Source: an uncultured Burkholderiales bacterium
GTDB lineage: Bacteria > Pseudomonadota > Gammaproteobacteria > Burkholderiales > Casimicrobiaceae
Assembly: GCA_937944385.1 (NCBI GenBank)
Contig: CALDYQ010000030.1
Span: forward strand, 1 to 35,395
Reading direction: 5' to 3'
Length of the DNA stretch: 35,395 nucleotides
Part shown: piece after piece, positions 1 through 35,395 of the stretch
How the letters are laid out: every line of letters starts with the position of its first letter
How positions within the stretch are numbered: position 1 is the first letter of the stretch
Notes under the pieces: model-generated
Told to the model about the DNA's origin: nothing
The model's database searches: none
The model's input: the letters and a program-made list of their open reading frames with translations, nothing else
Translations under genes and position numbers: made by a program

Positions 1-10
1 GGGAAGCGTG

Positions 11-157
11 TGCCGAGCAATCCCTCCGTCTCCGCCAAACAAAAAAGCCCCCGAAGTGGGGCTTTTTTGTTTGGCGCGGAAAGTTCGAGGGATGAGACCC
101 CGAGAAGAGGGTTCGGTGGAGGGCGCCGCGGCGCGGCGTCCGGAACGACGCCCGGAG
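11..157. repeat. tRNA-Ser-3'-end-like palindromic repeat, copy 1
   Basis: This is the first of two tandem copies of a structured repeat; the second begins at 221. Shared blocks are TGCCGAGCAATCCC (11-24), GGGATGAGA (89-97), GGTTCGGTGGAGG (110-122) and CCGGAACGACGCCCG (140-154). Positions 19-37 read AATCCCTCCGTCTCCGCCA, which looks like the T-arm 3' strand, acceptor strand and CCA of a bacterial tRNA-Ser. The 5' side of the T-arm (GGTTCG) is missing, so this is not a complete tRNA. ATCCCTC (20-26) pairs with GAGGGAT (87-93), enclosing the hairpin at 33-76. A GC hairpin sits between the last two blocks. The function is unknown; the tRNA resemblance is my reading, not a search result. Confidence 0.6.
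33..76. terminator. Long bidirectional terminator-like hairpin
   Basis: A perfect 19-bp inverted repeat (33-51 paired with 58-76) flanks the six-base loop CGAAGT. The stem contains A6-GCCCC on one side and GGGGC-T6 on the other, so a GC stem followed by a T run is seen on both strands. The left arm starts inside the tRNA-Ser-like CGCCA. It could stop minus-strand transcripts leaving the nitroreductase gene as well as plus-strand transcripts entering from the left. Confidence 0.75.
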
Positions 158-202
158 GGCGGCCCCGAGCGCGGTGCGCTGCACGGCGGCGAGGGGTGAG
201 GA

Positions 203-222
203 CAGGCGCCGCGAGGCGCCTG
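203..222. other. Perfect GC hairpin with GCGA loop
   Basis: CAGGCGCC (203-210) and GGCGCCTG (215-222) form a perfect 8-bp stem capped by GCGA, a GNRA-type tetraloop. It leads directly into the TGCCGAGC block of repeat copy 2. No T run follows, so it is more likely part of a structured RNA or repeat than a terminator. Confidence 0.5.
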
Positions 223-357
223 CCGAGCAATCCCGCTCTCTCCGCCAATTCAAAACGCCCGCGCGAGCGGGCGTTTCTTTTTCGAGAGCGGGATGAGAAC
301 CCGCGGAGCGGTTCGGTGGAGGCGGCGCGAGCGCGCCGCCGGAACGACGCCCGAAGG
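221..357. repeat. tRNA-Ser-3'-end-like palindromic repeat, copy 2
   Basis: Second tandem copy, with TGCCGAGCAATCCC (221-234), GGGATGAGA (290-298), GGTTCGGTGGAGG (310-322) and CCGGAACGACGCCCG (339-353). Positions 229-247 again end like a tRNA-Ser (CTCTCCGCCA). ATCCCGCTCTC (230-240) pairs perfectly with GAGAGCGGGAT (284-294). The spacer between the last two blocks folds as a 9-bp GGCGGCGCG/CGCGCCGCC hairpin. Copy 1 has a different sequence in this spacer but can still fold there, with one G-U pair, which suggests the structure rather than the sequence is kept. The copy ends 16 bp from the stop codon of the nitroreductase gene. Confidence 0.6.
253..276. terminator. Terminator hairpin
   Basis: AAACGCCCGC (253-262) and GCGGGCGTTT (267-276) form a perfect 10-bp stem with a four-base loop. 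On the plus strand it is followed by CTTTTT; on the minus strand the stem ends in TTTTGAATT. It is well placed to end minus-strand transcription of the aio operon just past the nitroreductase gene. Confidence 0.7.
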
Positions 358-373
358 AGTCGAACCGGCCCGG

Positions 374-1048
374 TCAGAGGCTGGTCACGAAGCTGGACAC
401 GACCGGGTGGATGCGCGGTGACTTACGACGGGTGACCGTGCCGACGTTGATGAAGCAGACGGCCTTCTCCCCGCGCTCGAGCCCGAACAAGGCCCTCAAA
501 TGGGGCGAAGTCATCGCCTGGCCGCTCGTCAGGCTGCTGCCGAAGCCCATTGCGTGAGCCGTCAGCAGGATGTTTTGTACTGCAGCGCCCACGGAGACGA
601 CTCGCTCGATGGCGCGGATATCGGGGTCTGCCTTGGCCAATCGTGCCACGACGAGCATGAGGCAAGGTGCACGATAGGCTTTCTCTCGTGCCATCTCGAG
701 CTGCTCGGGCGTGGCCGCGCCGTCACGGTCGCGCAGTGCTTTCGCGAAGACTTCGGCGAGGTCGGCTCGCCGTTGGTCAGGAATGAGGATGAAACGCCAA
801 GGCTGTAGCAGCCCGTGGTCGGGAGCAGCAGCCGCAGCCTCGAACAATTTCTCGAGCTGTTCGGCATCCGGACCGGGCGGGCCGAGACGTTTGGGGAGAT
901 GCGTTTGCCTGGAGACGATGAGGGTATGGGCGAGATCGGCGGTGGCCGTGGCCGACAGACATGCGAGCGCAGTAGCGGTGTCGTCCGCATCGCCCATCGA
1001 TTTCTGTTCGGAGGCTTTCGTGTTCACCCTGTGTGTGATCCCGCCCAT
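374..1048 (-). CDS. Nitroreductase-family protein of the aio operon
   Basis: A 224-residue flavin-dependent nitroreductase-family protein, probably FMN-binding and cytoplasmic. The N-terminal half has an APDHGLLQPWRF stretch like the flavin-contact region of YdjA-type nitroreductases, and the C-terminal half has a GAAVQNILLTAHAMGFGS core typical of the family. It is the last gene of the arsenite oxidase operon, 39 bp after the cytochrome c gene. Nitroreductase genes accompany arsenite oxidase genes in several betaproteobacteria (aoxC in Herminiimonas), but their role is not settled. The start is uncertain: ATG at 1048 gives the full length, while ATG at 997 would remove 17 residues that look unlike the family. 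Neither has a clear ribosome binding site. The physiological substrate is unknown. Confidence 0.85.
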   Translation of the reverse strand: MGGITHRVNTKASEQKSMGDADDTATALACLSATATADLAHTLIVSRQTHLPKRLGPPGPDAEQLEKLFEAAAAAPDHGLLQPWRFILIPDQRRADLAEVFAKALRDRDGAATPEQLEMAREKAYRAPCLMLVVARLAKADPDIRAIERVVSVGAAVQNILLTAHAMGFGSSLTSGQAMTSPHLRALFGLERGEKAVCFINVGTVTRRKSPRIHPVVSSFVTSL

Positions 1049-1487: not shown

Positions 1488-3971
1488 TCAGGCAAAACGG
1501 CGATCCTTGAACGAAATCGTCCGCTTGTAGTCATCGACCGTCCCGACGCGGCGGATGCTGCCCCAGGTACCTTTGTAGTAGGGCACGTAGTTCCGGTCCG
1601 TCCAGGGGGTAACGACGTCGCCATGCACGCCTTTGACGTAGCCGAAGAGCATGAAGGTGTGCCCCGACTTCATCGAATTGATGGGGTAGGCCATCGCATA
1701 GGTGCTGCCATGGTCATTCCACACCTCGACCACGTCACCGGCGGAGACGCCGAGCGACTTGGCGTCGTCCGGATTCATCTCCAAAAAGGCGAGTGGGATC
1801 CGGTCGCGGACGAAGCTGTTGTACTGGTCGTGATAGGCCGTCTGCCAGACTTCGTTGGCACGTCCCGAGTTGATCCAGAACTTGTGCTTTGCCTTTTGCG
1901 CCTCGACCATCGGCGGCAGGCCCGTCCAGGGCGCCGGCAGGAAGCGCGCCTTACCGTCCTTGGTGTCGAACTTGTTGTCGGCGTAGATCATTTCGGTGCC
2001 GATCAACTTGTCACCCTTGACTTCCTTGATCGGCAGCTGAACGCCGTTGTTGCCCGCCTTGCGCAGCAGGTCATAGGTGGCGAGATACCCGGTGTCTCCA
2101 CCCTGGCTGTTGATGTGACCCGCTCCAGGACGACCCGCACGACGGAAGCCGTCGTTGAAGGCATCTTCTTCGGTCTTCCAGTCGAAGCCTTCGAAGCGCT
2201 TCGCCATGGCCGCGTTGCCTTCCTTCTGATACATCGCCTTGAGCGTGTTGGCAATGTCGGCAGCGATCAGGCAGTCGGGCTTCGCCGATCCCGGCGGATC
2301 CATGAACTTCTCCGACAGACGCAGGCGCCGCTCGCCATTCATCGAGGTGAGATTCATCTCGCCAGGATGCGCTGCTGGGAACAGCAAGTGGCAGTCTTCG
2401 TCGATCGTCGTCGGATAGAGGTTCATCGCCGCCACGAACAGCCCGCCCTGATATTTGCAGGCGTTGTAGATGACATCCACGAGCTGCGGTACCGAGGCGC
2501 CACGGGCACGCGACATCGCGTCCTTGACGATCTGCGCACGCCGCCGCAGGGCCAGACGATGCTGCTCCGCGTTGAGCGTGGTCTGGAACGGGTTGGTGCC
2601 CCAGAGCGTGTACATCAGCCCGTTGCCCGCGATGATCTCCTGGTCGACGTAGACCAGCTTGTCACCTGGATACGGCGGGCGCGCGTATCCCTCTTGGTGG
2701 CCTCCCAGACGGCATACGCCCGTGCCGCGCCGCCCCACGTTCTGCGTGGCGAGGACGAGGTCGACCAGCGCGCTTTGAATGCGATAGTTGTCGTTGCCCC
2801 AGATGATGCCTTTCTCGTAGGCATGGAAGGTCCGCGGACGGTGACCGGACGCCTTGGGCTTGTAAGCCCACTCGGCCGCCTTCTTGATCTGCTCGACGCT
2901 GAGACCGGTGATCTTGGCGCCTTCCTCGAGGCTCATCTTGTTGGCGCGGACCGCCTCGTCGAAACCGACAGTGTGTTTGGCGATGAAGTCCTTGGCAATC
3001 CAGCCCTGGGCGACGACATAGGTCAAGAGCGTGTTGAACAGGGCGGTGTCCGTGCCCGGGTTGATCGCAAGGTGGAGGACGTTGTCCTTGCCTGCAACCT
3101 GTTCCGAAATGGCCACCGTGGCCGTGCGACGGGGGTCGACGACGATGAGTTTGGCCGATGCGACCGTTTCGCCCGGGAACCATTTCTTTTTCTTGTCGGA
3201 GGTGCCGCCGGTCAGATTCGGAATCCAGTGGTTCAGGAAGTAGTTGGATTGCGTCTCGTACGGGTTGGCACCCACGCACATGATGCAGTCGGTGACCTGC
3301 GCGTCCTCATAGCTGTTGTTGAGCTCCCCGATGCCCATGTCGCGCGTGGCGTGGCACTCGGAGTTGTAGGCCGGCCGGTTGTGGATGCGCACCATCGGGG
3401 TCTTGAGCGCAGTGAAAATGAGTTTGCCGGTGCCCCAGGTGTTTTCGAATCCACCGCCCGCGCCGCCGTGGTCGAAAACGTCATAGAACAGACCGTTCGG
3501 CCCGTCGTTGTCGAGGATCTTCTTGGTCAGCCCAGCGTACAGGGCGAGCGCTTCGTCCCAGCCGGTGACTAACCATTGATCGCCCTTGAAAATGCGCGGG
3601 GTCGACAGCCGGTTGCGGGTGATGCCGTCCGGCGTGTACATGTAGCTCGCCATCTTGCCACCGCGGGTCGAGGAGAGGCCGCTGTTGACGACGCACTCCG
3701 TGTCCGGGACGATCATGATGTTCCACTTCTTGCCGCTCTTGTCGGTGATCGTGTTGGTCATCGCCCGCGTGAGCGTGACTGCCATCGGCGGCAATTGGGT
3801 GCGGAAATCGAGCCCGAGCGCGTTCTGGTCGGGGGCGCGACCGCCCTCAGTGTTGTGATCCCACTTGTACACGTGGTAGCCACAGCCCACGATGCAGAAG
3901 TGGCAAGCCATGTTTGTCTTCTGCGCGTTTTTTGGCGGCAACGCGATCCGGTCGTTGATTTGGGTGCTCAT
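1488..3971 (-). CDS. aioA: Arsenite oxidase large subunit (molybdopterin, 3Fe-4S)
   Basis: An 827-residue catalytic subunit of arsenite oxidase, which oxidises As(III) to As(V) in the periplasm at a bis-molybdopterin-guanine-dinucleotide Mo centre. The N-terminus has C23-x2-C26-x3-C30. The position where most DMSO-reductase-family enzymes have a fourth Cys is a Ser (S101 in the [10 protein letters not shown] stretch), the arsenite oxidase hallmark that gives a 3Fe-4S rather than a 4Fe-4S cluster. Full family length and no breaks. There is no signal peptide; export is expected by piggy-back on the Tat signal of AioB. The start ATG has a GAGGAG site 6 bp upstream and lies 10 bp after aioB, so the two are probably co-translated. 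Cofactor supply needs MoaA, which is encoded at 32292-33413. Confidence 0.97.
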
Positions 3972-3981
3972 GCTGGGCTCC

Positions 3982-4509
3982 TCAGAGGATGTTGGACTGG
4001 CGCCCGTAGATCAGTCCGTCGACGCCGACGGCTCGGACACTGTCGGTCTTCGCGTCGTACTCGAGCAGGATGCGGGGCAGGTTTTCGGTGGCCTGCCCGA
4101 GCACCATCTGGCCGCCGTGCTCGGGGTCGAACACCGAGTAGTGACAACCACACTTGAGGACTTTGTTTGCCGGGTCGTAGCTCACTGGGCAGCCCATGTG
4201 GGTACAAAACGAGCTGTAAGCGACGATGTCGCGGTTGGGACCAACGCCGCCCGGCACAGGCGTGCCCATCCGGATGGCGATGCAGGCCGAGCTGTCATCC
4301 GGGTAGGTGAAGCTCACCGCCTCGTTGAGCGGCATCGACTTGACGGCCGCGATCGCGGTTGTCTTCGGGTAGGGCAGGTTCACTGCCCCGACAGGCGCGG
4401 CGGCAGCCGCGTTGGCGTCCCGGATCGGGATGACCGTGGCGCCTGCTGCCGCAGCAGCGGTACCGCTCGACTTCAAAAAGAAGCGGCGGCTGATCTTGAC
4501 GTCTTCCAT
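3982..4509 (-). CDS. aioB: Arsenite oxidase small subunit (Rieske 2Fe-2S)
   Basis: A 175-residue Rieske subunit that takes electrons from the AioA 3Fe-4S cluster and passes them to a cytochrome. It begins with a Tat signal (SRRFFLK, then an Ala-rich hydrophobic stretch ending near residue 35), which would export the folded AioA-AioB pair. Rieske ligands are C102/H104 (CTHMGC) and C120/H123 (CGCH). The disulfide cysteines C107 and C122 are both present, as in the Alcaligenes-type protein and unlike variants that lack the bridge. The start is well supported: AAGGAGGA lies just upstream of the ATG. It is the first gene of the aioBA-cytochrome-nitroreductase operon, about 21 nt after the predicted sigma-54 start site. 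Confidence 0.97.
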
Positions 4510-4673: not shown

Positions 4674-4706
4674 TTGCGTGCCCTCATCCGAAGGCGCGCT
4701 CCCCGC

Positions 4707-5573
4707 ATGCTGCTCAATCGCCGTACTGTCTTGCGGTCACTGCCGTGTGCGGTCGCCGTTGCGTTGTCGCGCTCTTCGTGGGCACTCGATTCGATCCGAA
4801 TCGGCGTGACGCCTGTGTTCCTCGCCGATCAGGCAGCATTCCTCGCGCGCTGGCGAGCGTACTTGAGCGAGCGCACGGGGATGCCGGTCGAGTTCGTCGC
4901 AAGAGACTCCTACCAGTCGATCCTGAGCCTGTTGCTGTCGATGCGTGTGGATGCCGCGTGGCTATGTGGCTATCCCTACACCCAGTTCGAGCAGGTGCTG
5001 GATCTTCTCGCCGTACCGCTCTACCGTGGCGAACCGACCTATCAGGCCTACCTGATTCGGTCGAAAAAAATCGGCGCGTCGATCAACTGCTGGTCCGACC
5101 TACGGGGTCGGGTTCTCGCTTACTCGGATCCTTTGTCCAACTCCGGTTGGCTCGTCGCGCAGGCTGAGCTTCGCCGTGCGGGGCTCGCGCCGGCCGACCT
5201 TCGGCGAACCTTCTTCAGTCATGGACACCGCAACACGACGGAAGCCGTAGCCGCGGGCCTCGCCGACGCGGGCGCGGTGGACGGCTACGTCTGGGATACG
5301 ATGCTTGAACAAGGTATGGCGGCGGCGCGGGCAACGGAAGTCGTCTGGCGATCCAAGGCGTTTGGTTTCCCGCCGCTGGTGACCCGCAAGCGTGAGCCTC
5401 ACCCGCTCATTCCGTCGTTGCGTCAGGCGCTCCTCAACATGAGCGAGGACGACGCTGGACGGCACCTTCTCAAATCCCTCAATCTCTCGGGCTTCGTTCT
5501 CGGTCGCCCTGACCTGTTTGAAAGTGTCCGCCGTCTTGCCCGCGAGGTGACCGGTGGAGCCCAGGGGGGCTGA
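4707..5573 (+). CDS. aioX: Periplasmic arsenite-binding sensor protein
   Basis: A 288-residue PhnD-like periplasmic binding protein that senses arsenite and signals to AioS. I chose the ATG at 4707, which gives a signal sequence with twin arginines (NRRTVLRSLPC) and cleavage near SWA-LD. An in-frame TTG at 4674 would add 11 residues and run into the enhancer dyad. The WLCGYPYTQFEQ stretch holds C87 (98 from the TTG start), matching the conserved Cys shown to be needed for arsenite binding in AioX of Agrobacterium. It is the first gene of aioXSR, divergent from aioBA, and its stop overlaps the aioS start by one base. The ribosome binding site is weak (AAGG about 12 bp upstream). Confidence 0.88.
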   Translation: MLLNRRTVLRSLPCAVAVALSRSSWALDSIRIGVTPVFLADQAAFLARWRAYLSERTGMPVEFVARDSYQSILSLLLSMRVDAAWLCGYPYTQFEQVLDLLAVPLYRGEPTYQAYLIRSKKIGASINCWSDLRGRVLAYSDPLSNSGWLVAQAELRRAGLAPADLRRTFFSHGHRNTTEAVAAGLADAGAVDGYVWDTMLEQGMAAARATEVVWRSKAFGFPPLVTRKREPHPLIPSLRQALLNMSEDDAGRHLLKSLNLSGFVLGRPDLFESVRRLAREVTGGAQGG

Positions 5574-7021
5574 TGCTGCACCGTTTGCCTTACCGGCTTC
5601 AAATCCCTCTGGGGTTGTCGCTGGCGGTATTGTTCGCTGCGGTCGCGGTCACCGTGGTGATCGCGCGGGGACAGGCCCAACAGGCACGCAGCAACATCCT
5701 CGTGCAGCTCGACCGAGCCGTGATTCTGATTACGGCGCAAGTTCGTCCGCTGCTTGCCGATGATGATGTGTGGCGGGTCTACACGCTGCTGCGTGACACA
5801 GCGCGCCTCATCCCGGGCGCGGAGGCTGATCTGGCGCGGCTGGCTGTTTTGTCCACCGACGGCATGGTGGTGGCCTCCTCGGATCCCACGGTGCTCCACA
5901 CGAGCACGCCGCTGCTCGGCCAGCCTTGGCGCGGACAAGTGCTAGGACGCGCCGAGGCGATTGAGACGCGGCAGCGTCTCGATTGGCCGGATGGCTCGGT
6001 GGTCGAGATCGATCCGGTCCGAAGCGAGGATGGCCAGACGCTCGGCTTTGTGTTCACCGAGGTCGAGGCGCCCGCCTTCGCGCCCGATTGGATATCGCTC
6101 GCCCAGATCGCTGCGACCAGCATCGCGCTCGCTGCTGCAGCGCTCGTGCCCTTGGGCTGGTGGATAGGGCAGCGCATGGCGCGGCCGGTCGCGCAACTGG
6201 CCGGGGTCATCGACCAGATCGGGCGTCGTGAAGCTGCCACGCTTGCGGCGTTGGTTCCGAGAACACGCAATCCTGAACTGGACCGCATCGGCAAGGCCGT
6301 CTACCGGCTGATCGACGAACTGGAGCGACGACGGGTCGCCGAGGAGCGTGCGCTCTCGGCCGAGCGGCTGGCCGCCGTCGGCAAGCTCACCGCCGCCGTG
6401 GCGCATGAGATCAACAATCCGCTCGCTGGGCTCCTGACCGCGACGCGCACGCTCGGGTTGCACGGGGAGAACAAACTCATTCGCGAGCGCACGGTCGATC
6501 TGCTCGAGCGGGGCTTGCAGCAGATCCGGAGTACGGTGACGGCGTTGCTGCCCCAGGCGCGGATCGAAGATCGGGCCCTGCGGCCGGAAGACCTGGAAGA
6601 CTTGGTGAGGCTCGTGCAGCCGATGGCGGATCAGCAGGGCGTCCGCATTGCGCATCGTGTCGATGTCACTTCCCCGCTTCAGGTGCCCTCGGCGCCGTTA
6701 CGCCAAGTCATGCTGAACCTCCTGCTCAATGCGCTCAATGCGGCCGGCCAGCAGGGTCGCGTCGAGGCCTGCCTGCAGGCCGACGCGTCGTGCGTACGTT
6801 TTACCGTGGGCAACTCGGGGCGCGCGCTCGCGCCCGAAGCGTTCGAGTCGGCGCTCTCGACCGATAGTGCGCGGGATCCGCGCGGCTTCGGGCTCTGGGT
6901 CTGTCAACAGATCGCTCGCCACCTGCGGGGACGATTCTCACTCGAACCGTGCGCCGATGTGCAGACCTGCATCGTGTTCGAGGTTCCCAACCAAGCTGCT
7001 GCGCAAGGAGCCTTGTCTTGA
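5573..7021 (+). CDS. aioS: Sensor histidine kinase for arsenite
   Basis: A 482-residue membrane kinase. Transmembrane segments at about 12-30 and 176-198 bracket a periplasmic sensing domain that would receive AioX. A HAMP-like linker follows, then the phospho-acceptor H278 in AVAHEINNPLAG and the N box (LNLLLNALNAAG, about 381-392). The G2 box is GFGLWV at 438-443. The G1 box is unusual, NSGRA near 415-418 instead of the usual DxGxG, so the Asp that normally contacts adenine appears to be Asn. The ATG lies in TGATG shared with the aioX stop. It should phosphorylate AioR. Confidence 0.9.
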   Translation: MLHRLPYRLQIPLGLSLAVLFAAVAVTVVIARGQAQQARSNILVQLDRAVILITAQVRPLLADDDVWRVYTLLRDTARLIPGAEADLARLAVLSTDGMVVASSDPTVLHTSTPLLGQPWRGQVLGRAEAIETRQRLDWPDGSVVEIDPVRSEDGQTLGFVFTEVEAPAFAPDWISLAQIAATSIALAAAALVPLGWWIGQRMARPVAQLAGVIDQIGRREAATLAALVPRTRNPELDRIGKAVYRLIDELERRRVAEERALSAERLAAVGKLTAAVAHEINNPLAGLLTATRTLGLHGENKLIRERTVDLLERGLQQIRSTVTALLPQARIEDRALRPEDLEDLVRLVQPMADQQGVRIAHRVDVTSPLQVPSAPLRQVMLNLLLNALNAAGQQGRVEACLQADASCVRFTVGNSGRALAPEAFESALSTDSARDPRGFGLWVCQQIARHLRGRFSLEPCADVQTCIVFEVPNQAAAQGALS

Positions 7022-8331
7022 GTGTTGTTTTGCTGATCGAGGATGATGCGATCGTCGGCGAGTCGCTTCAAATGCGGCTTGAACTGGAAGGCTACGCGGT
7101 GCTCTGGCGGCGAAGACTGGATGAGGCGCGCTCCGCGCTCGACTCATCGCCCGCGGCTGTAGTCAGCGACGTGCGGCTACCGGATGGGCTGGCGACCGAG
7201 TGGTTCGTCGGTCTACCTGTGGGGTTGCGCTCGAGGCCTTGGTTTTTTCTGACCGGCTACGGCAGCGTGAGTGATGCCGTCAGTGCCGTTCGCGCCGGCG
7301 CGCGAGACTATCTGACCAAGCCTTTCGATGTGGAACAACTGGTGGCGAAGATTCGCTCGGCCACCCAGCCCCCGAAGGTTCCGGAAGAGCCTGCACTGCT
7401 CGGTGTTTCTGCTGCAATTCGACAGGTCGAGCGAATGATCCGCCGCATCGCAGTGCAGCGTGTTCCGGTGCTTCTGATGGGGGAATCAGGCGTTGGCAAG
7501 GAGGTTGCGGCGCAGCTGATTCATGAGCTCGACCCGCGAGTACGCGAGGGCGATTTCGTGGCCGTCAACTGCGCGGCGATTCCGGAGACGATGCTCGAGG
7601 CCGAGTTCTTCGGCTACGAAAAAGGGGCTTTCTCGGGCGCGGTACGGAGCCATCGCGGCCACCTCGAGCGGGCTGATCGTGGAACCTTGTTTCTTGATGA
7701 AGTGGGGGAACTGCCGGCGAGCATGCAGGCTAAGCTCCTGCGCGCCCTTCAAGAAAAGTGTTTCTTCCGACTTGGGGGCGAGCGACTCGTGCGTAGTGAT
7801 TTTCGTATCGTCGCAGCGACCAACCGCGATCTCTATGCAGAGATGAATCAGGGCCGGTTTCGCGAGGATCTCTTCTACCGGCTTGCGGTCATCCGCGTAG
7901 AGATCCCGCCGCTACGCGACCGACCGGAAGACATCCGTTGGTTCACCGAAAAGTTTCTGGCGCAGATCGTGCTCGAGCGAGGCCAGCCGATCGCGATATC
8001 GGAGCCTTTTTTGCGCGAACTGATCCGCCGACCCTGGCGCGGAAACATTCGCGAGCTACGCGCTTACTTGGAGCAGGCCGTGGTGATGGCGGAAGGCGGG
8101 TTGCTCGATCTGCCTCAGGGCGAGGGCGACTGGATAGAGGCAGCAGAGACTCAGCAGACGATCGCCCCGCTCAGCCGGGTGGTCGAGGCCGTCGAGCGCG
8201 CACACATCCAGAAGGCGCTCCGGTATTGTGAGGGTAGTGTCGGTAAGACAGCTGAAGTGCTCGGCATCAGCCGAAAGACGCTCTGGGAAAAAATGAGGAA
8301 GCTGGCGGTCGCCGGCTCGGCAGGTCACTGA
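7018..8331 (+). CDS. aioR: Sigma-54-dependent response regulator of arsenite oxidation
   Basis: A 437-residue NtrC-family regulator. The receiver domain (about 1-115) has D9/D10, phospho-acceptor D51, T79 and K101. The AAA+ domain has Walker A GESGVGKE (155-162) and Walker B GTLFLDE. The sigma-54 contact loop reads GAFSGA (203-208) rather than the near-universal GAFTGA. A Fis-type helix-turn-helix (KTAEVLGISRKTLWEKMRKL) ends the protein. The start is TTG at 7018, giving MSVVLLIEDD and overlapping the aioS stop by four bases (TTGA); longer forms would read back through aioS. It is expected to activate the -24/-12 promoter at 4541-4556. Confidence 0.93.
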   Translation: MSVVLLIEDDAIVGESLQMRLELEGYAVLWRRRLDEARSALDSSPAAVVSDVRLPDGLATEWFVGLPVGLRSRPWFFLTGYGSVSDAVSAVRAGARDYLTKPFDVEQLVAKIRSATQPPKVPEEPALLGVSAAIRQVERMIRRIAVQRVPVLLMGESGVGKEVAAQLIHELDPRVREGDFVAVNCAAIPETMLEAEFFGYEKGAFSGAVRSHRGHLERADRGTLFLDEVGELPASMQAKLLRALQEKCFFRLGGERLVRSDFRIVAATNRDLYAEMNQGRFREDLFYRLAVIRVEIPPLRDRPEDIRWFTEKFLAQIVLERGQPIAISEPFLRELIRRPWRGNIRELRAYLEQAVVMAEGGLLDLPQGEGDWIEAAETQQTIAPLSRVVEAVERAHIQKALRYCEGSVGKTAEVLGISRKTLWEKMRKLAVAGSAGH

Positions 8332-32291: not shown

Positions 32292-33413
32292 TCAGCCGCC
32301 GATGAAGGACATCTCTACTTTGCGCTGCTTGGCCGTCTCTTCCGTGCGGATCTCGCTGTAGCGATCTTCCCGCGCGGCCCAGACGCCAGCGAGCAGGGCG
32401 GCGATCTCCTGATCGGTCGCGCCCCCGCGGAGGAGTGTGCGGAAGTCCACGCCGCGATCGGCGAACAGGCAGGTATAGATGCGGCCGTCGGTTGCGAGCC
32501 GGACGCGCGTGCAGGTCCGGCAGAACGCCCGGGTGACCGAGGAGATGACACCGATCTCGCCCGCGCCATCGATGTAGCGCCAGCGCTCGGCCACTTCGCC
32601 CGTGTATTCGGGCTCGACCGGCGCCAGCGGAAACACTTCGTTCACGCGCCGGATCACCTCGGCCGAAGGCACGACATCATCCATACGCCAGCCGTTGGTG
32701 GCGCCCACGTCCATGAACTCGATGAAGCGGACGACAACGCCGCTGCCGCGGAAGTGACGCGCCATGTCAACGATGCCGTGGTCGTTGACGCCGCGCTTCA
32801 CCACCATGTTGACCTTGAGCGGCGTGAGTCCGGCATCGAGCGCGACCTCGATGCCGCGCAGGACGTCAGCGACCGGGAAGCCGACGTCATTCATCGCCTG
32901 AAACGTCCGGTCATCGAGCGAGTCGAGTGAGACCGTAATGCGTTGTAACCCGGCCGCGCGCAGGGTGCGCGCCTGACGCGCAAGTGTTGAGCCGTTCGTC
33001 GTCAGTGTGAGGTCGAGCGGGCGCCCAGTCGGTGTACGCACCTGCGCGAGCATGTCGATCAGGCTCGGCAAATCGCGCCGGAGCGTGGGCTCGCCGCCGG
33101 TCAGGCGAATCTTTTCGACGCCAAGCGAGACCGCGACGCGTGCGAAGCGGGCGATCTCCTCGAAGGTGAGCAGCGCGCCGTGCGGCAGGAAGGCGTAGCC
33201 CGGGCCGAACACGTCCTTGGGCATGCAGTAGGTGCAACGGAAATTGCAGCGGTCGGTGACCGAAATGCGCAGGTCGTGTAGGTGCCGTCCACGCGCATCG
33301 ACGACGCGATGGCTCGCAAGGGCTCGCGCGAGGGCGTCGCGTGCGAGAGGCTCGACGAAGCGTGTCTCGGCCTGCTGCGCAATCGGTATGAATTTATGGC
33401 TCGACTCACCCAA
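32292..33413 (-). CDS. moaA: GTP 3',8-cyclase MoaA
   Basis: A 373-residue radical SAM enzyme for the first step of molybdenum cofactor synthesis. The SAM cluster motif is C56-x3-C60-x2-C63 (CNFRCTYC). The second 4Fe-4S site is C-x2-C-x13-C in [19 protein letters not shown]. The protein ends in the conserved Gly-Gly tail. The start is TTG at 33413, set by a clear GGAGGT six bases upstream (33420-33425); ATG starts are absent there. It supplies the cofactor for AioA and for the formate dehydrogenase whose accessory genes lie divergently next door. Confidence 0.97.
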
Positions 33414-33493: not shown

Positions 33494-34051
33494 GTGAGTC
33501 CCGCCGTGAGCGAATCCGCTGCAACGTCTTCCGCTGTCGCCTCCGCCGCGCTGCCGCGGCACGTCTGGTGGGCCATGGATGTGGGTTTTCGTCGTCGGGC
33601 GGTGACAAGTCGATGGGTCCAAGCCGTGTGGGAGCTTGCTGTGGTGCGCCTGCCGGCCGAGGGTATCCCCGAGGGCTGTGACGCCTTCTTCCCGGCACAG
33701 CCCGTCGAGGTGCACCCAAGCGAGGGTGAGGGATACTGGCTCAATCTGCACTCCCCCGCGCCCTGCGTGTTCGTGATGTGGCGGCATGAAGCGGCCGATG
33801 CCGCGCCCGTGCCTACGGTCGTCACGCTCTCCTACAACGAGGCTGGGCGCATGATGGATGCCGGCGAGCAGGTGGAGCAGCGCCCGATGCCGGAACCCTT
33901 GCGTGCTGCGCTCGAGGCCTGGGTCGCAGCGCACTACACGCCAAAGACTCGGCACAAGGTGCGCCGGAATGACCCGTTCCAGGATGCGCCAGCACGGGCG
34001 TTTACTGCGACATCGGCTGCGGGCGAAGCTCGCCCGGACGACCATGGCTGA
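33494..34051 (+). CDS. DUF3305 protein (formate dehydrogenase/molybdoenzyme accessory)
   Basis: A 185-residue DUF3305 protein. WVQAVWELAVVRLP, EGYWLNLHSPAPCVFVMWRH and TVVTLSYNEAGRMMDAGEQV match the family. DUF3305 proteins occur in formate dehydrogenase gene clusters with DUF3306 and a ferredoxin; their function is unknown. It starts at GTG 33494, or more likely GTG 33506, which has AGGGTGAG at a better distance. It is divergent from moaA and overlaps the next gene by 8 bp. Confidence 0.85.
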   Translation: MSPAVSESAATSSAVASAALPRHVWWAMDVGFRRRAVTSRWVQAVWELAVVRLPAEGIPEGCDAFFPAQPVEVHPSEGEGYWLNLHSPAPCVFVMWRHEAADAAPVPTVVTLSYNEAGRMMDAGEQVEQRPMPEPLRAALEAWVAAHYTPKTRHKVRRNDPFQDAPARAFTATSAAGEARPDDHG

Positions 34052-34754
34052 GGCCCCTCCCCGCGTGACAGGGTTCCTGTCCCGCTGGTCGCGACTCAAG
34101 CTCGAGTCGGTGCAGCCAGCGACACACGAGCTCACGCCGCTGCCCATCGCCGACGCCGAAGCAGCGTCTCCGGCCGAGGCTGGCTTGGACACCGCGCCGT
34201 CGCGCGAAGAACAACTGGCGCAGGTGCGAACGCAGGGGCCCGAACTGCCGCCGATCGAAAGCGTTTCACTCGCGTCCGATTTCACGCCCTTCATGCAGCG
34301 CAAGGTGCCCGAGTTCCTTCGCCGGCAGGCGCTCAAGGCACTCTTCCGCGATCCGCATTTCAACCAGATGGACGGGCTCGACATCTACATCGATGACTAC
34401 ACCCGGTTCGAGCCGATTCCCGAGGACATGCTTGACAAGCTCTCGGCCTGGCGCGCGATCCAGAAGCCCCTCGAGCATGTGGTCAGTCCCGACGGCCACG
34501 CTGTCGATGTCGAAAGCGAGGAGGGTCGGGCCATCCTCGCTGCGCGGGCGGCGGCCGAGCGCGAGGCCGATCCGTGCGCGAGCCCAGCGGTACAGGACAC
34601 GGAAGCGTCGTGCGAACCGGGCCGGGCTTCGACGTCGGCTGCGGATGCGTCGCCGGTGTTGTCCTGCCCCGAGGCGCCGAGCGAAATGCCCATCGCTCAA
34701 CGGTCCCAGCCCGAGGCGGCTGCTCAACCCAAGCAATCGACGGCGCGACCATGA
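34044..34754 (+). CDS. DUF3306 protein (formate dehydrogenase/molybdoenzyme accessory)
   Basis: A 236-residue protein. FLSRWSRLKLE at the N-terminus and the core DFTPFMQRKVPEFLRRQALK with FRDPHFNQMDGLDIYIDDYT are the DUF3306 signatures. The last 70 residues are low-complexity Ala/Ser/Glu and probably unstructured. It overlaps DUF3305 by 8 bp and the next gene by four (ATGA), indicating one operon. The function is not known beyond association with formate dehydrogenase. Confidence 0.87.
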   Translation: MAEAPPRVTGFLSRWSRLKLESVQPATHELTPLPIADAEAASPAEAGLDTAPSREEQLAQVRTQGPELPPIESVSLASDFTPFMQRKVPEFLRRQALKALFRDPHFNQMDGLDIYIDDYTRFEPIPEDMLDKLSAWRAIQKPLEHVVSPDGHAVDVESEEGRAILAARAAAEREADPCASPAVQDTEASCEPGRASTSAADASPVLSCPEAPSEMPIAQRSQPEAAAQPKQSTARP

Positions 34755-35395
34755 GCCGACAGGTTCACCTCTGCACCTGCAACCGCTCGATCCCGCTCGA
34801 GCGTCACGCGTTGGCCGAAGCGGGTCAGTTCGCGGGTGCAGGCGCCATTCGTACATACGACGCGATGTGCCGGCACGAGCTCGCTCGGCTCGCCGAAACG
34901 GCGGAGGGCGATACGGTCGTCGCCTGCACGCAGGAGATGCGCCTGCTCGGCGAAGCGCTTGGCGATGCGAAGCGGGTCTCGACAGTGCGTTTCGTGAACG
35001 TGCGCGAAACGGCCGGCTGGTCGAAACAGGGCACGTTCAGCGGCCCGAAGATTGCGGCACTCGTTGCCGAGGCGATGCTGCCGGAGCCTGCGCCGACGCC
35101 GGTCGTGAACTACCGATCGGGCGGGCAGACGCTGTTTTCGTGGCTTGCGACGCTGTCGAAGACGCTGCATAACTTCGTCGGGCCGGTGTTCGTGGTTGGT
35201 TGCCTGCTGCTCTTTCTCACCTTCGTCCGTGACAACTGGCCCAAGGCGGTGGACCTGAAGTGGATCGCAGCCGGTGGCGGACTCTTCAATGACAAGCACA
35301 TTCCGAGCGAGCGCTTCAACGCCGGAGAAAAGGTCTGGTTCTGGGGCGGCGTGATGCTCCTCGGCATCATCGTGGGCGGGTCAGGACTGGTGCTC
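34751..35395 (+). CDS. In-frame chimera: accessory ferredoxin N-terminus joined to formate dehydrogenase gamma subunit (runs off the window)
   Basis: 215 residues are visible and the frame is open to the window end. Residues 1 to about 128 match the N-terminal part of the 4Fe-4S ferredoxin-like protein that follows DUF3306: CTCNRSIPLE, YDAMCRHEL, VACTQE, FVNVRETAGWS and GPKIAALVAEA. From about residue 129-140 the sequence becomes the middle of a formate dehydrogenase cytochrome b (gamma) subunit: HNFVGPVFVVG, LTFVRDNWPK, GGGLFNDKHIPSERFNAGEK and FWGGVMLLG, with two membrane helices. The ferredoxin's C-terminal clusters and the N-terminus of the gamma subunit are missing, as are the alpha and beta subunit genes expected between them. 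A deletion or an assembly join near 35132-35168 would explain it. Confidence 0.8.
   Translation, partial: MSRQVHLCTCNRSIPLERHALAEAGQFAGAGAIRTYDAMCRHELARLAETAEGDTVVACTQEMRLLGEALGDAKRVSTVRFVNVRETAGWSKQGTFSGPKIAALVAEAMLPEPAPTPVVNYRSGGQTLFSWLATLSKTLHNFVGPVFVVGCLLLFLTFVRDNWPKAVDLKWIAAGGGLFNDKHIPSERFNAGEKVWFWGGVMLLGIIVGGSGLVL

Follow-up and report, generated by a model that had tools for sequence, protein, structure and literature searches.

At the right end of the window (the whole stretch of DNA analysed here, 35395 bases, which is the entire contig C30, one of the 98 that make up a draft genome of 2,536,416 bases), an open reading frame begins as an accessory Fe-S protein of a formate dehydrogenase cluster and continues as the gamma subunit of such a cluster. 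A preliminary description of this DNA had offered two origins for the frame: either a new membrane-anchored protein had arisen by deletion, or the two parts had been joined in assembly. The locus raises the question of how the two genes came to lie in one frame, and of what their product might be worth to the cell.

Right end of the window and intact clusters of relatives

The features at the right end of the window are the following.

32292-33413, minus strand: MoaA (GTP 3',8-cyclase), the conserved, divergently oriented left neighbour of the cluster (TIGR02666, 380.8 bits; cut-off 284)
33494-34051, plus strand: DUF3305 protein, a formate dehydrogenase accessory protein, intact and orphaned (PF11749, 7.1e-33)
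34044-34754, plus strand: DUF3306 protein, a formate dehydrogenase accessory protein, intact and orphaned (PF11748, 3.6e-29)
34751-35134, plus strand: 5' stump of the accessory Fe-S protein gene, residues 1-128 of about 696 (61% identity to genome G010 of the same genus)
35129-35134, plus strand: junction ACGCTG (Thr-Leu), assignable to either gene, without filler bases (from comparison with relatives and the breakpoints of G005)
35132-35395, plus strand: 3' stump of the gamma subunit (cytochrome b) gene, continuing on contig C53 (TIGR01583, 6.9e-12; PF01292, 3.9e-6)
35255-35395, plus strand: place at which C30 adjoins C53, 141 bases identical to the end of C53

The start codon of the DUF3306 gene was taken from the sequence, and the gene overlaps both of its neighbours. 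MoaA was present in the fetched flanks of ten same-genus and three same-family genomes, and was not in that of G009.

The frame at 34751-35395 has no stop in its 215 residues and is still open where the contig ends. Residues 1-130 matched the N-terminus of the 696-residue Fe-S protein of G010 at 61% identity, while the match to TIGR01583 lay at residues 133-214 (6.9e-12). On this part of the frame, cut by the contig end, the TIGR01583 score was 45.8 bits over model positions 45-128 of 204, against a curated cut-off of 115.85; the intact gamma subunit of G010 scored 156.4 bits. No single family was found to cover all 215 residues, and the matches better than 0.01 were to cytochrome b/gamma models only, beginning at residue 130-135. 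The first 128 or so residues had been described as the accessory ferredoxin that follows DUF3305 and DUF3306. This pair does lie directly upstream, and the residues are indeed the N-terminus of the Fe-S protein, but the 215 residues gave no Fer4 match; in the G010 protein the first Fer4 domain starts at residue 193 and several follow. The passage into gamma is unbroken, as had been stated, although the switch falls at 35129-35134, slightly before the HNFVGP stretch at which it had been placed.

In G010, the cluster runs in the order DUF3305, DUF3306, Fe-S protein (696 aa), TorD-like chaperone (216 aa), FdhA (976 aa), FdhB (212 aa), gamma (350 aa) and a small protein, with FdhB assigned to NF038355, 'FDH3 beta' (343.8 bits; cut-off 240). 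The five core proteins were found in this order on one contig in all seven same-genus genomes tested (G002, G005, G007, G008, G009, G010 and G015), the queries all coming from G010, itself one of the seven, and also in both same-family genomes tested (G017 and G023). The small protein stood directly after gamma in nine of the ten same-genus genomes with a fetched gamma (G008 gave no match) and in two of two same-family genomes. The flanks in the genome under study are collinear with those of the relatives, with MoaA, DUF3305 and DUF3306 on the left and the gamma C-terminus and the small protein on the right. The window has its flanking gene order and its DUF3305/DUF3306 pair in common with the FDH3-type formate dehydrogenase operon of Betaproteobacteria (NF038355, TIGR01583), and the orthology of its Fe-S protein start and its gamma end to those of intact clusters is recognisable. 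It differs in that about 7 kb are missing, with half of gamma, the greater part of the Fe-S protein and all of TorD, FdhA and FdhB. That the rest of the ferredoxin, a chaperone and the alpha and beta subunits would lie between these points in related clusters was borne out by the seven same-genus genomes, in which 6.9-7.4 kb separate the two breakpoints. PMC4464133 reports that, in 60% of the fdhGHI operons associated with a dmsD-type chaperone, the DUF3305/DUF3306 pair lies upstream.

The junction, the missing core genes and the contig ends

Positions 35123-35143 read GGG CAG ACG CTG TTT TCG TGG, and the point of the switch is the pair of shared Thr-Leu codons, ACG CTG, at 35129-35134. Relatives of the Fe-S protein have, for example, GGQTL-IIG at this place, and relatives of gamma have, for example, GFTL-FSW; among ten same-genus gammas the two junction residues were TL in six, TV in two and HL in two. 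The parental breakpoints of this species were deduced from its genus relatives. In the seven intact same-genus relatives the two breakpoints lie 6936-7406 bases apart, and the bases common to both number 0, 0, 3, 3, 3, 5 and 6. The zeros are those of G002 and G008; in G005, ACGCTG stands at both breakpoints, with the codon frame seen at the window junction.

We consider it probable that one deletion of about 7 kb took the FDH3-type core and left an in-frame scar. In a single event of this kind, the TorD-like chaperone, FdhA and FdhB would have been lost entirely, together with most of the Fe-S protein and the first half of gamma. From the comparison of breakpoints with genus relatives, we infer that it was most likely mediated by a short direct repeat, ACGCTG, through either slippage during replication or end-joining. 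The two copies would have lain on Thr-Leu codons in the same frame, so that the stumps would have been fused in frame; if both genes carried the repeat on this pair of codons, the reading frame would survive a deletion of any total length, and selection would not be needed to account for it. DUF3305, DUF3306 and the small protein after gamma would persist as orphans, and such survivors suggest an operon loss caught early. Microhomology-mediated deletion with a chimeric remnant is a known general class, from which the window would differ in nothing in principle: a short repeat is possible, filler is absent and the flanks are intact.

Against this reading stands the fact that only one genome carries the junction. 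Whereas 35 of the 60 genomes searched, the own genome included, matched the query at 0.001, both parts occurred in one frame in the own genome only; none of the 59 other genomes, among them 16 other members of the genus, gave a match spanning both parts. Likewise, no row among 66 collected loci covered residues 1-215, a collection from which very near records may have been left out.

The core genes were then sought in the own genome by means of G010 queries. The 976-residue FdhA gave three matches at 26-32% identity only, and FdhA was not found. In six other members of the genus FdhA is 87-93% identical to that of G010, so an FdhA present in this genome should not have escaped the search. The candidates on C30, C37 and C39 (the last partial) were other molybdoenzymes by NCBIfam, with only AioA, the arsenite oxidase subunit on C30, above cut-off; the C37 protein was nearest to a DMSO-reductase subfamily and the C39 protein to ArrA, both below cut-off. 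A match on C65 adjoins an apparent NuoH and is presumably NuoG, judging from the reading frames. FdhB returned four matches in the own genome, the best at 31% over about 120 residues (2.5e-9) and the others short Fe-S motifs; one match had 44% identity over 51 residues. The remaining Fe-S protein gave its first 130 residues at the locus and six weak matches, none better than 5.5e-7. The search for the gamma N-terminus returned only gamma residues 213-350 on C53 and 130-258 at the fusion, of which the match starting at 130 is apparently an alignment running into the Fe-S part. TorD was sought in the window and in the final 6.3 kb of C53, without a match. The preliminary description had seen an operon with accessory genes but no catalytic subunit; neither FdhA nor FdhB was found elsewhere in the genome.

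Searching the own genome with the 215 residues led, besides the locus itself, to the end of contig C53 only. C30 closes with 141 bases (35255-35395) that are the first 141 of C53 read in reverse, an exact overlap, and when the two contigs are joined the frame closes at 311 aa, with C53 supplying the remaining gamma. Directly after gamma, C53 carries a small alanine-rich protein and, further along, a tRNA-Ser. The contig end lies 261 bases past the junction and the overlap starts 120 bases past it. A length of 141 is the largest default k of MEGAHIT. The exact overlap at the contig ends suggests a branch of the assembly graph at that place, with sequence variation in the sample near the locus a possibility.

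At the left end of the window, the only other end checked, no 141-base overlap was seen; this end lies in a repeat family. Window positions 1-420 hold a GC-rich repeat, with two 70-base copies 210 apart at 73% identity. Positions 19-171 are 99% identical to a right-end stretch of C32 that starts at the 3' end of tRNA-Ser(gct) (L192), and positions 229-304 are identical to 76 bases at the left end of C70, overlapping tRNA-Ser(gga) (L193). Three contig ends fall within this repeat, which may represent a tRNA-Ser-linked repeat family.

The graph branch bears on the possibility that intact and deleted alleles coexist in the sampled population and that the assembly took the deleted one. This would be compatible with the deletion proposed above, and the overlap does suggest a second branch at 35255-35395, with strain variation near the locus. 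The junction itself is unbroken, though, and no intact fragment is present in the bin; moreover, the overlap begins downstream of the junction and hence marks another difference, not the deletion. We regard such a polymorphism as unlikely, if still the better placed of the alternatives.

An operon intact in the organism and falsely joined in the contig, through chimeric reads or graph simplification, appears less likely again. The draft state of the genome and the fact that C30 stops so soon after the junction, in an overlap with C53, are in favour of such an artefact, and a 7-kb piece might have stayed unbinned. The breakpoints of the seven intact relatives share at most 6 bases, however, which is too short for a join by overlap or k-mer, and the joined genes belong to one operon in the right order, strand and frame. 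With de Bruijn assemblers, a contig should break where an alternative path is also well covered; C30 is unbroken at the junction, where a well-covered intact path would be expected to break it. In addition, the core genes searched for are missing from a genome rated 98.58% complete. As between the two origins first offered, then, a deletion is well supported by the collinear flanks, the 6.9-7.4 kb missing, the core subunits not found elsewhere and the 0-6 shared bases, while an assembly join driven by overlap is unlikely.

The fused frame and its age

If made, the product of the deleted locus would be a protein of 311 residues in which an N-terminal part from the Fe-S protein is followed by gamma's last three membrane segments; it would be expected to be non-functional. 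A simple hydropathy scan of intact gamma showed five hydrophobic regions after a signal-like first segment; only the last three of the five remain in the fusion. Intact gamma aligns to FdnI, the gamma subunit of E. coli formate dehydrogenase-N (1kqf chain C), in which we take the haem ligands to be His18, His57, His155 and His169. By alignment to 1kqf chain C, these four histidines fall at positions 139, 183, 277 and 291 of the G010 gamma. Three of them have counterparts in the fusion, namely His57, His155 and His169 (at 140, 234 and 248), and His18 has none: where FdnI has its first core helix and His18, the fusion has 128 residues of the accessory protein. The view of the frame as a new membrane-anchored protein is not supported, since the product is short of elements on which gamma depends and no partner subunits turned up in the genome. 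In FdnGHI, it is FdhB that hands electrons to gamma.

A structure model of the window part was poor (mean pLDDT 57.8, pTM 0.31), with residues 112-126 below 50, and offers a hint at most. That the chimera is a selected membrane protein, made of an Fe-S N-terminal part and a truncated cytochrome b and acting with DUF3305/DUF3306 but without formate dehydrogenase, is highly improbable: the frame is preserved and stop-free, its genus distances are not above what MoaA would lead one to expect, three of four haem-ligand histidines are kept and the join follows the low-confidence residues between two predicted parts, but neither the His18 equivalent nor the first core membrane helix is left, FdhA and FdhB are gone, 128 cytoplasmic residues would come before a segment whose N-side in the intact protein would face the periplasm (given the topology of FdnI), the model is poor and the fusion was seen in none of the 59 other genomes searched.

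The age of the deletion was approached through own/others ratios, i.e., the distance of the own protein to genus members relative to the distances among those members, given as plain ratios with no significance computed. The ratio was 1.51 for MoaA (eight relatives), the sole control protein, and 1.36 for DUF3305, 1.27 for DUF3306, 1.59 for the Fe-S stump and 1.19 for the gamma stump (nine relatives each). FdhD was left out of the controls, wrong frames having evidently been picked in some genomes (distances up to 0.84). Measured to two outgroups, neither stump lay outside the range shown by intact copies; when these distances were divided by the mean for such copies, the Fe-S stump had values of about 1.01 and 1.04 and the gamma stump about 1.04 and 0.96, with MoaA at 0.88 and 0.93 and DUF3305 at 0.94 and 0.91 on the same scaling. 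These outgroup ratios give a slight hint that the stumps may be changing faster than MoaA and DUF3305, which would count against recency. Overall, the distances point to no clear decay in the remnants, which would fit a recent deletion and would also be compatible with selection on the remnant.

Most likely, then, the fusion is a recent, non-functional scar, with its recency read from these distances and its lack of function from the parts that are gone; the surviving frames are free of stops, which counts against non-function. Rather than a new protein, the locus seems to present an early phase of ordinary gene loss. It offers a clear snapshot of operon loss, with both flanks and one junction present, in a genome of 2.54 Mb, and illustrates that a frame-preserving deletion can pass for a new fusion family in automated annotation. 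What is known of formate dehydrogenase itself is unchanged by it.

Apparent cluster loss in the genus and other molybdenum enzymes

Within the genus, 12 of 17 members, the own genome included, matched the query at 1e-5. G011, G012, G013 and G016 (90-98% complete) were without DUF3305 and had no query match at 1e-5, with weak matches at 0.001 (33-36% identity) in G011 and G013; in G004, DUF3305 lies at a contig edge and a query match was absent. Since four of the 16 other members were without both DUF3305 and a cluster match, loss of the cluster looks recurrent in this genus, which is represented mostly by draft genomes. The own genome (2.54 Mb) and that of G016 (2.6 Mb) are the smallest, the other 15 members searched ranging from 3.2 to 4.7 Mb.

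FdhD was considered as a marker of formate dehydrogenase and set aside. It is present on C4 of the own genome and also in G011, G012 and G013, which gave no cluster match, and was not found in the cluster-bearing G010; its presence does not decide whether formate dehydrogenase is there.

The window also carries an arsenite oxidase, AioA/AioB, at 1488-4509 on the minus strand (TIGR02693, 1290 bits; TIGR02694, 187 bits; both far above cut-off). MoaA may have been kept despite the loss of formate dehydrogenase because AioA is a remaining molybdenum enzyme. Beside aioBA, at 4674-8331 on the plus strand, lie a periplasmic-binding-type protein, a sensor kinase and a response regulator with an ATPase domain, which, from a reading of the open frames, we take to resemble an aioXSR set. 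Elsewhere in the own genome, contig C39 (L112 1-1995, minus strand) encodes a partial molybdopterin oxidoreductase, with ArrA its best NCBIfam match (368 bits; cut-off 1600), beside a protein with Fe-S motifs, and this may be another arsenic or sulfur redox enzyme.
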